Shown: piece by piece, positions 5,854 through 40,784 of the stretch
How the letters are laid out: each line of letters opens with the position of its first letter
How positions within the stretch are numbered: the first letter of the stretch is position 1
Source of the DNA: Polaromonas vacuolata
GTDB lineage: Bacteria > Pseudomonadota > Gammaproteobacteria > Burkholderiales > Burkholderiaceae_C
Reading direction: 5' to 3'
Assembly: GCF_012584515.1 (NCBI RefSeq)
Contig: NZ_CP051461.1
Span: forward strand, 1,855,501 to 1,919,500
Length of the DNA stretch: 64,000 nt
The notes under the pieces: model-generated
Database searches by the model: none
Told to the model about the DNA's origin: nothing
Seen by the model: the letters and a program-made list of their open reading frames with translations, nothing else
Program-made: the position numbers and the translations under genes

Positions 5854-6228
5854 ATGACAACACTCAATGTTTTAGGCACAGAACTTGTGCCCTGCTCTTA
5901 CGATCCGCTAACAGGCTATTTTCGGGACGGCTGTTGCACCACAGATGAAACAGACCAAGGTTCGCACTTGGTTTGCGTGCGGGTGACACAAGCGTTTTTA
6001 GAATTTTCTGCAGGACGCGGTAATGACCTCGTTACACCCAGGCCCGCTCACCGTTTTGCAGGACTTAAAGCCGGCGACCGCTGGTGCCTTTGCGCCAATC
6101 GCTGGATTGAAGCTTTGCAAGCGGGCATTGCGCCGCCTGTGGTGTTAGAGAGCACGCATCAAAAAACGCTGGAGTTCGTGGGTTTATCTGAGCTTGAAAA
6201 AAATCGATTTCAAGGTGTTGCTCAATAA
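5854..6228 (+). CDS. DUF2237 family protein
   Basis: A 124-residue cytosolic protein that is almost entirely a DUF2237 domain: LNVLGTELVPCSYDPLTGYFRDGCC (given in parts: LNVLGTELVPC, DPLTGYFRDGCC), the HLVCVRVTQAFLEFS segment, GNDLVTPRP and LKAGDRWCLCANRW. The conserved cysteines and the GDRWCLC motif are the family hallmarks, but no biochemical role is established that I can name. It starts 21 bp after qmcA with a weak ribosome binding site, so it may be a third operon member, and it ends 54 bp before tRNA-Ser. Confidence 0.85.
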   Translation: MTTLNVLGTELVPCSYDPLTGYFRDGCCTTDETDQGSHLVCVRVTQAFLEFSAGRGNDLVTPRPAHRFAGLKAGDRWCLCANRWIEALQAGIAPPVVLESTHQKTLEFVGLSELEKNRFQGVAQ

Positions 6229-6282
6229 GTAAGAGAAATTGGCAGATGTGAAGATTCTCACTGCTATACTTAGAGGCTAAGC

Positions 6283-6372
6283 GGAAGGGTGGATGAGCGG
6301 TTTAAGTCATACGCCTGGAAAGCGTACGTAGGGTTATACCTACCGCGGGTTCGAATCCCGCCTCTTCCGCCA
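6283..6372 (+). tRNA. tRNA-Ser (anticodon GGA)
   Basis: A 90-nt class II tRNA with encoded CCA. The acceptor stem 6283-6289 pairs with 6362-6368 (one G-T pair), the discriminator is G6369 and CCA is 6370-6372. The anticodon loop CTGGAAA (6315-6321) gives anticodon GGA, which reads UCC and UCU serine codons. A long variable arm (about 6325-6343, GTAGG...CCTAC) is as expected for serine, and the T arm has GCGGG-TTCGAAT-CCCGC. It resembles E. coli serW/serX in layout. It is followed by an intrinsic terminator and by a tandem array of copies of its own 3' part. Confidence 0.96.
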
Positions 6373-6422
6373 AAAGTTAATAACTTCACGAGTTTTCCAT
6401 GTGAGACTAAAAAACGCAAATT

Positions 6423-6446
6423 AGCCCAGAATTTCTGGGCTTTTTT
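6423..6446 (+). terminator. Intrinsic terminator of tRNA-Ser (first array unit)
   Basis: Stem AGCCCAG (6423-6429) pairs with CTGGGCT (6435-6441) over a 5-nt loop and runs into a six-T tract (6441-6446). It lies 50 bp after the tRNA CCA and is the expected end of the tRNA transcript. Confidence 0.85.
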
Positions 6447-6470
6447 GTGCCTGTTTGAAACGTGGTGGCA

Positions 6471-6528
6471 CTGGTAAGCGTGTATAGGGTGATGCCTAGC
6501 ACGGACTCAAACCCCGCCTCTTCCGCCA
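6471..6528 (+). pseudogene. tRNA-Ser 3'-part copy, array unit 1
   Basis: A 58-nt segment aligns without gaps to tRNA positions 6315-6372. The anticodon-side bases CTGG-AAGCGT, variable arm and acceptor 3' strand are kept, but the T arm is altered (ACTCAAAC in place of TTCGAATC). No acceptor 5' strand or D arm is present, so it cannot fold into a full tRNA. Confidence 0.85.
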
Positions 6529-6578
6529 AATGTCAATAACCTCGCGAGTTTTCCACGTGAGACTAGAAAACGCAAATT

Positions 6579-6602
6579 AGCCCAGAATTTCTGGGCTAAT
6601 TT
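6579..6602 (+). terminator. Array unit 2 hairpin with disrupted T-tract
   Basis: The same 7-bp stem as the tRNA terminator (6579-6585 with 6591-6597), but the six-T tract is replaced by TAATTT. It probably folds but should terminate poorly. Confidence 0.6.
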
Positions 6603-6626
6603 GTGCCTGTTTGAAACGTGGTGGCA

Positions 6627-6684
6627 CTGGTAAGCGTGCATAGGGTGATGCCTAGCACGGGTTAGAGTCCCGCCTCTTCCGCCA
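6627..6684 (+). pseudogene. tRNA-Ser 3'-part copy, array unit 2
   Basis: A 58-nt tRNA-like segment ending in the conserved CCTCTTCCGCCA. The T loop reads GTTAGAGTCCCG, closer to the parent tRNA than unit 1 on the 3' side of the T stem. The 5' half of the tRNA is missing. Confidence 0.85.
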
Positions 6685-6733
6685 AAAGTTAATAACTTCA
6701 CGAGTTTTCCATGTGAGACTAAAAACGCAAATT

Positions 6734-6757
6734 AGTCCAGAATTTCTGGGCTTTTTT
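6734..6757 (+). terminator. Array unit 3 terminator
   Basis: Stem 6734-6740 with 6746-6752. One C-to-T change makes a U-G pair, so the stem survives in RNA, and the six-T tract is intact. Likely a working second terminator. Confidence 0.6.
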
Positions 6758-6781
6758 GTGCCTGTTTGAAACCTAGTAGCA

Positions 6782-6839
6782 CTGGTAAGCGTGCATAGGG
6801 TGATGCCTAGCACGGGCTCAAACCCCGCCTCTTCCGCCA
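6782..6839 (+). pseudogene. tRNA-Ser 3'-part copy, array unit 3
   Basis: A 58-nt tRNA-like segment nearly identical to unit 1 (CTGGTAAGCGTG, GCTCAAAC in the T arm), ending in CCTCTTCCGCCA. The 5' half is missing. Confidence 0.85.
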
Positions 6840-6935
6840 AAAGTCAATGAATACATGAGATTCCACATGTAATCAAAAACGCAAATTAGCACAAAATCTC
6901 TGGGTTAATTTGTGCTCGCATCAAAAGAGATCGCA

Positions 6936-6993
6936 CTAATAAGTGTGCATAGGGTTATTCCTAGGACGAGTTCGAACCCCACCTCTTCCGCCA
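6936..6993 (+). pseudogene. tRNA-Ser 3'-part copy, array unit 4 (most diverged)
   Basis: A 58-nt segment beginning CTAATAAG with a T loop GTTCGAAC that is again tRNA-like, ending in the conserved CCTCTTCCGCCA. The surrounding spacer and hairpin of this unit are the most decayed of the four. Confidence 0.8.
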
Positions 6994-7071
6994 AAAGTCA
7001 ATGAATCTATGAGTCATCCACATGCATTCAAAAACGCAAACTAGCCCTGATGTGTTGAAGTGCTTCTCGTA

Positions 7072-8340
7072 TTAATCCACCAACGCCGCATAAACCAAAC
7101 TACGGAACAGCGGCCTGTAATACTCCCGCTGATTGGGGGCTTGGATCATCATCAGAGCAAATAAGTCTTGTGCTGGATCGACAAAGAAAGTGGTGCCAGC
7201 AATGCCGCCCCAGTAATACAAGCCTTGACTGCCTGGCACTGCAGCTAGGCCGCTGGCTAAACGTACTGCAAATCCTAAGCCAAATCCGTGTCCGGCTGGT
7301 AGCAACAGAGGTGATGCGCCGTGCGGATAAATTGGTAAGTTGCCTAGATGGTCGGCTGTCATAAAGTCCACCGTTTGCGGGCTTAATAGGCGTACTCCGC
7401 CCAACTCGCCGCGGTTGAGCATAAATTGTAAAAAGCGTGCGTAATCCATGGCCGTTGAGACCAATCCGCCGCCGCCAGACTCTAACAAAGTTCCGCTTGC
7501 GACGTCTTTGCGTACGTCAATTAGCATAGGTGGCGGGCCGCCATCTGGATCGCTTGCAAATGGTTCTGCAATACGGTGCTGCTGAGCCTGTGGCACTGAA
7601 AATGCGGTATCCACCATGCCCAATGGCATCAAAATTTGATGGCGCAAAAATGAACCCAATGTTTGTCCGCTGATGACTTCTACTAAACGCCCCAACACAT
7701 CAGTGGCGCGGCTGTACTCCCAAGCCGTACCGGGTTCTAACTGCAAAGGCAATGATGCCAAGGTCTCAGAAAATTCGGCATTGGTGCGTTGGCGCGAACC
7801 GATGCGCGCCTCAGCGTACTGTTTTTGCACCGTTGAAGTTCCTAAAAACTCATAGGTTAAACCGGCAGTATGGCGCAGTAAGTCGTGCACAGTAGCTGGC
7901 TTGGCTACTGCGTGTAATTTAACTTTTTTCTTGCCTTCTTCGGTGCGAGCTACTTTTTGTTCGGCGTACTCCGGTAAATACTTTTCTATCGGGTCGGCCA
8001 GCAACACACGACCCTGTTCCATCAACATCATGATGGCCAACGAGACCAAGGGTTTAGTCATTGAGTAGATACGGAAAATCGATGCCTTATCCATGGGCTG
8101 CGCCGTCTGCGGATCTTGCTCACCCAGACTTTCAAACAGCGCGATCTTGCCGCGCCGTGACACCAGCACCACCGCGCCAGGCAATCGTTGATTGTCAATT
8201 TCGCCTTGCAGCGTGGTTAGCAAATCTGCGGCACGCTGTGGGCATATGCCGACTGTTGCTGGGTTTGCAGTGGGCAGCTTTTTGACGTTGGCGATTTTGT
8301 TCATCTTAGATGTGGCGGTTGTGAATGAATGATTTGTCAT
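7072..8340 (-). CDS. Serine hydrolase, beta-lactamase class C / EstB-like family
   Basis: A 422-residue protein of the beta-lactamase-fold esterase family. The catalytic SxxK is SMTK (Ser93, Lys96) in FRIYSMTKPLVS, and the second motif tyrosine is Tyr209 in WEYSRATDVLG. It also has LLRHTAGLTYEF and a C-terminal YYWGGIAGTTFFVDP segment where the KTG-like HxG motif of true beta-lactamases is replaced by WGG, as in EstB-type esterases. No signal peptide is visible, which also speaks for a cytosolic esterase or transesterase rather than an antibiotic-resistance enzyme. Substrate unknown. Its 3' end abuts the tRNA-derived array, and it lies downstream of the FAD reductase on the same strand. Confidence 0.9.
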   Translation of the reverse strand: MTNHSFTTATSKMNKIANVKKLPTANPATVGICPQRAADLLTTLQGEIDNQRLPGAVVLVSRRGKIALFESLGEQDPQTAQPMDKASIFRIYSMTKPLVSLAIMMLMEQGRVLLADPIEKYLPEYAEQKVARTEEGKKKVKLHAVAKPATVHDLLRHTAGLTYEFLGTSTVQKQYAEARIGSRQRTNAEFSETLASLPLQLEPGTAWEYSRATDVLGRLVEVISGQTLGSFLRHQILMPLGMVDTAFSVPQAQQHRIAEPFASDPDGGPPPMLIDVRKDVASGTLLESGGGGLVSTAMDYARFLQFMLNRGELGGVRLLSPQTVDFMTADHLGNLPIYPHGASPLLLPAGHGFGLGFAVRLASGLAAVPGSQGLYYWGGIAGTTFFVDPAQDLFALMMIQAPNQREYYRPLFRSLVYAALVD

Positions 8341-15768: not shown

Positions 15769-16573
15769 AAATCGTTTTCATAAACGCAGCATTTTCTTAA
15801 TGCTGTATCTGGTATTTGCTTTGTTGCCCATCTACTGGATGATCAATATGAGCTTTAAAACCAATGAAGAAATTGTCTCGGTGTTTTCGTTCTTTCCGCA
15901 GAACTTCACTTGGGACAACTACCACACGATTTTCACTGATCCGTCTTGGTACATGGGCTACGTCAATTCAATGATTTATGTGGCAATGAACACGGTCATA
16001 TCAGTCGCAGTTGCCCTACCCGCTGCGTATGCGTTTTCACGCTACCGTTTTTTGGGTGATAAGCATGTGTTTTTCTGGTTGCTGACCAATCGCATGACAC
16101 CGCCGGCGGTGTTTTTGCTGCCCTTTTTTCAGCTCTATTCAACCGTCGGTTTGATGGACACCCATATTGCAGTAGCGCTGGCGCACTTACTTTTTAACGT
16201 GCCCTTGGCGGTCTGGATTTTGGAAGGTTTTATGGGCGGTATACCGCGCGAAATTGACGAGACAGCTTATATCGACGGCTATTCTTTTCCACGTTTTTTC
16301 ATGACAGTTTTCTTGCCATTGATTAAAGCCGGTGTCGGCGTAGCCGCATTCTTTTGCTTTATGTTTAGTTGGGTGGAGTTACTGCTGGCACGCACTTTAA
16401 CCAGTGTCGATGCAAAGCCGATTGTGGCCACGATGACGCGTACCGTGTCTGCATCCGGTATGGATTGGGCGACGCTGGCCGCCGCCGGCGCACTGACCAT
16501 AGTGCCCGGCGCCATCGTGATTTGGTTTGTTCGTAACTACATCGCCAAAGGTTTCGCGATGGGTCGCGTTTAA
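15761..16573 (+). CDS. glpQ: Glycerol ABC transporter permease GlpQ
   Basis: A 270-residue permease of the MalG/UgpE type with six predicted membrane helices. The EAA loop is EIDETAYIDGYSFPRFFMTV (about 165-184), followed by FLPLIKAG. The name follows the Rhizobium glycerol transporter, not the E. coli glycerophosphodiesterase. It follows glpP with an 8-bp overlap and is followed within 10 bp by the small membrane protein gene. Confidence 0.9.
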   Translation: MHENRFHKRSIFLMLYLVFALLPIYWMINMSFKTNEEIVSVFSFFPQNFTWDNYHTIFTDPSWYMGYVNSMIYVAMNTVISVAVALPAAYAFSRYRFLGDKHVFFWLLTNRMTPPAVFLLPFFQLYSTVGLMDTHIAVALAHLLFNVPLAVWILEGFMGGIPREIDETAYIDGYSFPRFFMTVFLPLIKAGVGVAAFFCFMFSWVELLLARTLTSVDAKPIVATMTRTVSASGMDWATLAAAGALTIVPGAIVIWFVRNYIAKGFAMGRV

Positions 16574-16583
16574 GGAGAAAAAT

Positions 16584-16892
16584 ATGCTGGGATGGATGGC
16601 TTGGACCTTACCGGTCGCTGTATTTTTTATTTCTATTGCGCTGATGCTAGTCGGTATGACGATCTGGGAGATCCGCTCGCCTACGGTGGAGCGGCGCGGC
16701 TTTCTACCTATGAAAACCACTCGTGGTGACCGCTTATTTATTGGTCTACTCGCGGCGGCATATTTAAATCTACTGTTCTTGGGCTTTGGCTCTCGAATCG
16801 AAGCCTTGCTTAATCTTCAAGCCGAACCATCGATTTGGATTAGCTTTGTGCTTTCTATGGGACTGTTAGGCCTGATCATGAATAAGGGCTAA
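16584..16892 (+). CDS. glpU: Small membrane protein of the glycerol transporter operon (DUF2160 type, GlpU)
   Basis: A 102-residue protein with three hydrophobic segments (MAWTLPVAVFFISIALMLVG, LFIGLLAAAYLNLLFLG, ISFVLSMGLLGLIM) and the motif TIWEIRSPTVERRGFLP between the first two, as in DUF2160 proteins of glycerol-type ABC operons. The start is ATG 16584 because AAGGAG sits 5-6 bases before it; an upstream in-frame ATG lies inside glpQ. Its role is unknown, probably an accessory or stabilising subunit; placement between permease and binding protein matches glpU of Rhizobium. Confidence 0.8.
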   Translation: MLGWMAWTLPVAVFFISIALMLVGMTIWEIRSPTVERRGFLPMKTTRGDRLFIGLLAAAYLNLLFLGFGSRIEALLNLQAEPSIWISFVLSMGLLGLIMNKG

Positions 16893-28002: not shown

Positions 28003-29133
28003 TTAATTCAGCGGTGTTTTCTTACCGTCTTTGTAGACGTAAAGAGTAATCGCTGGGTTCTTCAATTCGCCGTTAGGCTCAAAAGCGATGGTGGTGGTCA
28101 CGCCCTTGTAGTTAGTCTTCATCAACTCTGGCAAATAGACTTTTGGATCGCTAGACTTTGCACGTTTCATCGCGTCGACCAAAACGAAAGTAGCGTCATA
28201 GGTGTATGGGCTGTAGACCTGGAACTGGTTTGGATACTTGGCGTCGTAACGCTTTTTCCATGCTTCGCCGCCTGGCATTTTTGCCAGCGATGCACCGCCT
28301 TCAGCGCAAACAATGTTCTCAACTGTTTTAGCGCCGGCTGCGAGCTTGGCGACTTCTGTCGTGCAGATGCCGTCACCACCGAAAAACTTGACGTTGCTCA
28401 TGCCGAGTTGTTCCATCTGACGCAGCATTGGTCCAGCTTGTGGATCCATACCGCCGAAGAAAATCGCATCGGGCTTCTTGGCTTTGACGGCTGTCAAAAT
28501 GGCCATGAAGTCAGTGGCTTTATCGGTGGTGAACTGCTCGTCAACAACCTTCATGCCTTTGGACAAAGCGGTGCGTTTGAACACTTCAGCAACGCCTTGG
28601 CCATAAGCTGTACGGTCATCAATGACGGCGACAGTTTTGAGCTTGAGTCCATCAATCGCGTAGAAAGCCAGACCAGCGCCAAGAGCGTTGTCGTTGGCAA
28701 TGATACGGAAGGTGGTGTTGTAGCCTGGCTTGGTCAGATTAGGGTTGGTTGCAGCGCCGGTGATATGGGGAATACCGCAGTCGTTGTAAATCTTAGAAGC
28801 AGGAATCGTGGTGCCGGAATTGAGGTGACCGACTACGCCAGCGACTTTTGCATCGCACAACTTTTGTGCAGCAGCCGTGCCTTGTTTTGGATCGGCGGCA
28901 TCATCTTCAGCCACGATTTCAAACTTGGCTTTCTTGCCGCCAATCATGATGTTCTGAGCGTTCAGATCTTCAATGGCCATGCGGACGCCATTTTCATTAT
29001 CTTTTCCGTAGTGGGCTTGCGAGCCGGAAAGCGGGGCAACATGGCCGATTTTTACGATCAGGTCCTCAGCCGAAGCCATGCCAGCCAAGCTAGCCAGTGC
29101 CGCAATCACTGTCAGTTTAAATTTCATCTGCAT
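28003..29133 (-). CDS. Branched-chain amino acid ABC transporter substrate-binding protein (LivJ/LivK type)
   Basis: A 376-residue periplasmic binding protein, with a signal peptide ending at GMASA before EDLIVKIGHV. It has the family's HVAPLSGSQAHYGKD, VVGHLNSGTTIPASKIY and AYGQGVAEVFKR segments. It probably binds branched-chain or related amino acids; exact ligand unknown. The start is ATG 29133 with GGAG 7 bases before. It is an orphan: no livHMGF permease or ATPase genes are near, and it has its own terminator. Orphan Liv-type binding proteins in Burkholderiales commonly serve a transporter encoded elsewhere. Confidence 0.9.
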   Translation of the reverse strand: MQMKFKLTVIAALASLAGMASAEDLIVKIGHVAPLSGSQAHYGKDNENGVRMAIEDLNAQNIMIGGKKAKFEIVAEDDAADPKQGTAAAQKLCDAKVAGVVGHLNSGTTIPASKIYNDCGIPHITGAATNPNLTKPGYNTTFRIIANDNALGAGLAFYAIDGLKLKTVAVIDDRTAYGQGVAEVFKRTALSKGMKVVDEQFTTDKATDFMAILTAVKAKKPDAIFFGGMDPQAGPMLRQMEQLGMSNVKFFGGDGICTTEVAKLAAGAKTVENIVCAEGGASLAKMPGGEAWKKRYDAKYPNQFQVYSPYTYDATFVLVDAMKRAKSSDPKVYLPELMKTNYKGVTTTIAFEPNGELKNPAITLYVYKDGKKTPLN

Positions 29134-40665: not shown

Positions 40666-40784
40666 GATTTTTCTTCTTCATTGAATTTGAAATTTGCCTT
40701 TAGAGCAGCTATAGAAAAAATAGCTTAAAAAAATTTAAAAATAATAAAAAATAATAAAAAATAATTAAGAGTTTTGCCTAAGTT
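40666..40784 (-). promoter_or_regulatory. AT-rich intercistronic leader of pilY1
   Basis: In an operon whose other genes overlap, pilX and pilY1 are separated by 119 bp of nearly pure A/T. On the minus strand the RNA begins with three near copies of a UUAUUAUUUU-type unit (40735-40766), then an AGCTAT/ATAGCT hairpin near 40708-40726, then a weak GAAGAAG ribosome binding site. A possible internal promoter, Hfq-binding region or ribosomal S1 enhancer. Confidence 0.5.

Follow-up and report, generated by a model that had tools for sequence, protein, structure and literature searches.

The best-known tRNA-tail arrays are those of E. coli tyrT. In E. coli K-12, the tails that follow tyrV lie 178 bp apart and have about 19 tRNA bases in common, and passages of PMC4986893 describe the release of RtT RNAs from tRNA transcripts. 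A structured piece of tRNA trailer, the 3′ external transcribed spacer (3′ ETS) of E. coli leuZ, acts as an sRNA sponge according to excerpts of PMC8166272. The array described here also contains a structured piece of tRNA trailer, but it is repeated, whereas the leuZ 3′ ETS is a single copy whose sponge activity was shown experimentally, as those excerpts report. A literature search returned no title describing this array.

The array lies within a 64,000-nt stretch of DNA (the window) in which ARAGORN called a single tRNA, the intact tRNA-Ser(GGA) at 6283–6372 on the plus strand (Rfam RF00005, 51.4 bits). Behind it, on the same strand, four additional 58-nt copies of the part from the anticodon loop to the CCA end (6471–6528, 6627–6684, 6782–6839 and 6936–6993, the last being the most diverged) each start with the anticodon loop (CTGGAAA), at its 5′ edge. 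Homologous trailers of 96–98 nt follow the tRNA (6373–6470) and copies 2 to 4 (6529–6626, 6685–6781 and 6840–6935), and the trailer of copy 5 ends early, near 7046, leaving a remnant at 6994–7046 whose end is approximate. The units align from starts at 6315 (within the tRNA), 6471, 6627, 6782 and 6936, with start-to-start spacings of 156, 156, 155 and 154 bp, and Tandem Repeats Finder reported 6315–7002 with a period of 156, 4.4 copies and a score of 914. The repetition is not due to chance, and an assembly artefact is unlikely because pairs of units differ at 14 to 58 of the 156 alignment columns, counting gaps, and the genome is a single contig. The unit alignment and Tandem Repeats Finder bear out the preliminary description of an intact tRNA-Ser(GGA) with four head-to-tail units of about 155 bp, and the alignment likewise upholds its observation that the last 12 bases, CCTCTTCCGCCA, are the same in all five units. 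This 12-base end has one further occurrence in the 3,837,686-base genome, in DNA that by eye resembles repetitive coding sequence. The copies do lack the D arm and the acceptor 5′ strand, as had been stated: only the first unit was called a tRNA by ARAGORN and Rfam, and a complete cloverleaf in every unit, as expected of tandem tRNA genes, was not found. Small ORFs of 62–64 aa overlie the array.

In layout, tandem units behind an intact tRNA that each carry the tRNA 3′ end, the array resembles the rtT units of E. coli tyrT/tyrV (RttR RNA; Rfam RF00391), but by the tests made it is no RtT member. RtT was not among the 15 Rfam matches that 6200–7200 gave with an E cutoff of 10, whereas the same model gave four matches of 132.9–137.5 bits in an E. 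coli control. The rtT units are also longer (178 bp, compared with 154–156 bp here), and their copies start by eye in the T loop rather than in the anticodon loop. A further difference is the inverted piece of tRNA tail in the E. coli rtT spacer, matched by 1 of 2000 dinucleotide shuffles; in spacers 1 to 4 of the present array, shuffles scored as high in 1038, 1182, 982 and 1685 of 2000 cases, counts that do not support an inverted tail. The inverted-tail criterion is a feature observed in E. coli in this analysis rather than a printed definition of RtT. The E. coli array had been described earlier as comparable but unrelated, with 178-bp units and 19 tRNA bases each, which agrees with the E. 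coli measurements and the missing Rfam match.

Pairs of CCTCTTCCGCCA spaced 125–155 bases apart occurred in 18 stretches of the genome collection, two of which contained a tRNA by ARAGORN, and these two are true analogues: one in Lacisediminimonas profundi behind tRNA-Ser(UGA) (L051) and one in a Clostridia MAG behind tRNA-Ser(CGA) (L041). As in the present array, a tail and a terminator are repeated behind an intact tRNA-Ser; unlike it, each analogue has one extra tail in the stretch read, a copy that starts by eye in the T loop, and an inverted tail in the spacer (11 of 2000 shuffles as high for L051 and 1 of 2000 for L041). The trailers are unlike one another, so separate origins are probable for the L051 and L041 repeats. 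Together with the present array, the two analogues in unrelated bacteria suggest that tRNA-tail arrays arise repeatedly, with copies that begin in tRNA loops. The inverted tail piece lies about 40–60 nt past the CCA in E. coli tyrV (L128), in L051 (2361–2500) and, on the minus strand, in L041. Two further repeated stretches, in Aquiflexum lacus (L044) and Merdimonas (L040), carry CCTCTTCCGCCA about 150–177 bp apart with no tRNA called.

To place the array among its relatives, we examined the tRNA region, which was matched in 53 of 61 genomes, its own genome counted. Among 36 same-genus genomes, 28 gave the locus, 3 gave short matches only and 5 gave no match. All 28 loci have a single tRNA tail (at most 9 of 28 mismatches, both strands), the one exception being a weak extra opposite-strand match in L023; tail-like words at 1468 nt in L014 and 534 nt away in L034 are chance. 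Since L017 stops 3 nt past the CCA, 27 loci are informative, and the array was absent from all 27 within right flanks of 631–1580 nt, which is one half of what the preliminary description had said would mark an inert duplication. In a family sample of 399 genomes from at least 141 genera, the tandem-tail pattern matched 20 genomes, with four in-register matches in this genome and one in each of the 19 others, and a reversed-pattern control matched 14 of the same 399 (counted by hand). ARAGORN called a tRNA in just one of the 19 other loci (L061), which has no array. Within this genome, the array occurs at 1 of 44 tRNAs examined (from 45 rows, after dropping one truncated duplicate and merging identical copies), and where the tail is matched behind its Lys, Gly and Pro tRNAs, the match is an intact neighbouring tRNA. 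The best reading is probably a lineage-specific tandem amplification. The proposed history of repeated duplication is supported, and parts of the units show conflicting kinship: spacer 1 is nearest to spacer 3, from which it differs at 2 of 77 columns, and tRNA part 2 is nearest to tRNA part 4, with 2 differences in 44, by which the units appear as mosaics.

A terminator-like hairpin had been proposed for every unit. The hairpin is present in all four spacers, but a T-run behind it and a plus-strand terminator score are found only in spacers 1 and 3, whose terminators lie at 6423–6441 and 6734–6752. Spacer 2 instead forms a perfect palindrome at 6573–6603 with 15-nt arms and the end TAATTTG, having lost its T-run, spacer 4 has an imperfect terminator-like hairpin at about 6880–6912, and behind copy 5 the terminator hairpin has been lost from the remnant. 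The first terminator, with its full stem and T-run (6423–6447), lies upstream of all copies. No sigma-70-like promoter was found in 6150–7150, which is weak evidence because the scan also missed the tRNA’s own promoter. A consensus fold pairs 6471–6481 with ACGCAAATTAG of each spacer (a conserved ACGCAAA block before the terminator) through mostly invariant pairs. The long-range stem drawn from this fold, in which the unit start (CUGGU-AA-GCGU) pairs with ACGC-AA-AUUAG, was rejected, as its pairs are mostly invariant and single-unit minimum-energy folds lack it. A minus-strand Rfam match to asX2 was dismissed as chance (24 bits, the gathering score being 70).

A single genome with five diverged copies of the same trailer provides a natural test of which trailer parts are kept. 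A hairpin between each tRNA part and the terminator position (6385–6405, 6541–6561, 6697–6717, 6852–6871 and 7006–7026) keeps 29 of 30 pair cells across the five units, including unit 4, where two-sided changes occur, and the remnant behind copy 5, where the terminator is gone. Two-sided changes are found at 3 of 6 pairs (as many in 32 of 500 shuffles), the covariation score was matched by 1 of 500 shuffles, and slides of 2 columns pair 60–67% of cells. When five relatives, picked for visibly homologous trailers, were added, 98.3% of the hairpin cells are paired, and two-sided changes are seen at 5 of 6 pairs; taken jointly with the terminator, 97.6% of cells are paired versus 24–46% in slid versions. 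Retention of the hairpin taken alone has a P of 0.02 for unit 4 and 0.10 for unit 5 if two-thirds of changes are transitions, and of 0.16 and 0.46 if all are. The native trailer hairpin looks selected, because it covaries between species that lack the array as well. Its UCCA loop is complementary to U33–A36 of the tRNA-Ser(GGA) anticodon loop, and it sits between tRNA and terminator (here at 6385–6405). A hairpin with at least 4 pairs and a TCCA loop occurs in 22 of 43 distinct same-genus trailers with quite different stems (loci L008–L035 and L146–L159; raw counts that ignore species kinship), or in 20 of 42 after removal of the 3-nt L017 and the terminator or flank hairpins of L009 and L149. 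Elsewhere, such a loop hairpin is found in 3 of 43 other tRNA trailers of this genome and in 3 of 18 out-of-genus loci (L133, L136 and L061). If this evidence holds, the hairpin would point to structure conserved within the trailer of a bacterial tRNA.

The tRNA-derived parts have fared unequally. Copies 2 to 5 keep 3, 4, 4 and 2 of 5 T-stem pairs, and their variable-arm hairpins form 9, 9, 9 and 8 of 9 pairs versus 7 in the tRNA; on the best reading of these losses, the copies can presumably no longer be tRNAs. The contrast in retention between T-stem and trailer hairpin has a P of 0.015, or 0.28 without the shared change at position 49. The longest invariant run of the five-unit alignment spans 14 columns, made up of the 12-base end and AA, and by column shuffling its P is 0.0037 for five rows and all columns, 0.0064 for the first 145 columns and 0.0086 for copies 2–5, but 0.076 for copies 2–5 over the first 110 columns only. 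Units 1–4 alone share an invariant run of 18 columns (P 0.029, column shuffling), and in copies 2–4 alone the longest run lies elsewhere, in the variable-arm part (21 columns, 14–34; P 0.028). The 12-base end was chosen as a feature after the fact, and P depends on the rows and columns used. Of the earlier proposal that selection acts on this end, the invariant run and its low P in some settings stand, but the high P in another setting, the run elsewhere in copies 2–4 and the post hoc choice weigh against it, and selection, for which the trailer hairpin adds an argument, is suggested rather than demonstrated. By these comparisons, the invariant tail run combined with retention of the trailer hairpin through two-sided changes would exceed what plain decay predicts. 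Template-switch mutation could be an alternative source of such palindromes.

The tandem amplification is observed directly; its role we infer. We give about even odds to a lineage-specific amplification on which selection is weak or absent. Specifically, duplication would have taken in tRNA-Ser(GGA) from its anticodon loop on, together with trailer and terminator, and unequal crossing-over with patchwise conversion would have produced the four extra units. Most transcripts from the tRNA promoter would stop at the first terminator, the second terminator with a T-run, that of unit 3, would catch rare read-through, and the copies would supply at most back-up termination and spare trailer RNA. 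This reading is favored because the array occurs at a single tRNA of this genome and at none of the informative relatives, because the kinship of its parts conflicts, because tRNA features are lost and because the first terminator is complete in stem and T-run. Against it speak the invariant tail run, the nearly complete set of trailer-hairpin pairs and the improved variable-arm hairpin. These same features, together with the two-sided hairpin changes in the array and the five relatives, favor the main rival, a processed RNA array like E. coli rtT or the leuZ 3′ ETS, in which read-through would be cut at each CCA into several RNAs that carry the tail CCUCUUCCGCCA flanked by two hairpins and would titrate either an RNase or some other RNA. 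The leuZ sponge and the release of RtT RNAs, as described in passages of PMC8166272 and PMC4986893, are precedents. Nevertheless, a good terminator stands ahead of all copies and the weak scan found no promoter, the P of hairpin retention in units 4 and 5 loses strength if all changes are transitions, and the T-stem contrast vanishes without the position-49 change; we consider processing possible but rather doubtful. It is unlikely that short trailer RNAs from the one tRNA promoter set, through copy number, the dose of a decoy or tRNA-Ser sensor, with each unit presenting an invariant CCUCUUCCGCCA strand between the remodelled variable-arm hairpin and the UCCA-loop trailer hairpin. Slightly less probable still is an effect purely at the DNA level, in which template switching and conversion at quasi-palindromes would perfect hairpins that have no RNA function and would hold parts of the units similar. 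It would account for the mosaic units and for unit 2, where the terminator became a perfect palindrome at the expense of its T-run, the opposite of selection for termination; it does not explain a trailer hairpin that covaries between species lacking the array, and its conversion tracts would need to terminate inside a span of about 14 bases around the tail.

The least probable account, in our estimate, treats the copies as scars of site-specific integration, attachment sites left by islands that targeted the tRNA-Ser(GGA) anticodon loop. Passages of PMC4383910 list the anticodon loop, the T loop and the T/acceptor junction as crossover subsites of tRNA-targeting integrases, and the copies begin exactly at the anticodon loop. 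tRNA-integrated genomic islands (Islander) likewise leave tRNA fragments from the anticodon loop downstream of an intact gene, according to the same passages, but here the fragments lie 96–98 bp apart with no integrase between them and the repeated unit holds the whole trailer, beyond tRNA sequence. In 26 of the 28 same-genus loci, this tRNA is preceded by an SPFH-domain or DUF2237 gene. The right side speaks for such an account, as it varies among relatives and a livK-type gene on the opposite strand, 88–751 nt past the tRNA in 11 of 27 loci, lies about 21 kb from the array in the window (28003–29133, minus strand; PF13458; 85% identical to the tRNA neighbor in L008). By gene order in relatives, the separating segment is 7072–27807, which encodes a beta-lactamase-family hydrolase, a pyridine nucleotide-disulphide oxidoreductase, an FGGY kinase, a DeoR-type regulator, an ABC transporter, an FAD-dependent oxidoreductase, a carbonic anhydrase, a DCC1-like protein, a sodium:solute symporter and PutA (the domain scan covered the 21 kb except ORF 16527–16892, with two ORFs outside its focus). 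DNA has been inserted or rearranged beside tRNA-Ser(GGA), and nothing marks the array as its attachment site. The proposed role as an integration target was not borne out: the genome has 7 integrases of family PF00589, none in the window, and a search for array-like sequence or a far copy of the tail in 7076–34000, including the vicinity of the livK-type gene, gave nothing better than E 2.8. A phage or plasmid origin was rejected as well, as 6411–7071 had no match in either collection and the tandem-tail pattern did not occur in viral contigs. Copy starts coincide with integrase crossover subsites in the other arrays too, at the T loop in E. coli, L051 and L041. Elsewhere in the window, a short A/T-rich tandem repeat with a period of 10 or 20 lies at 40715–40765.
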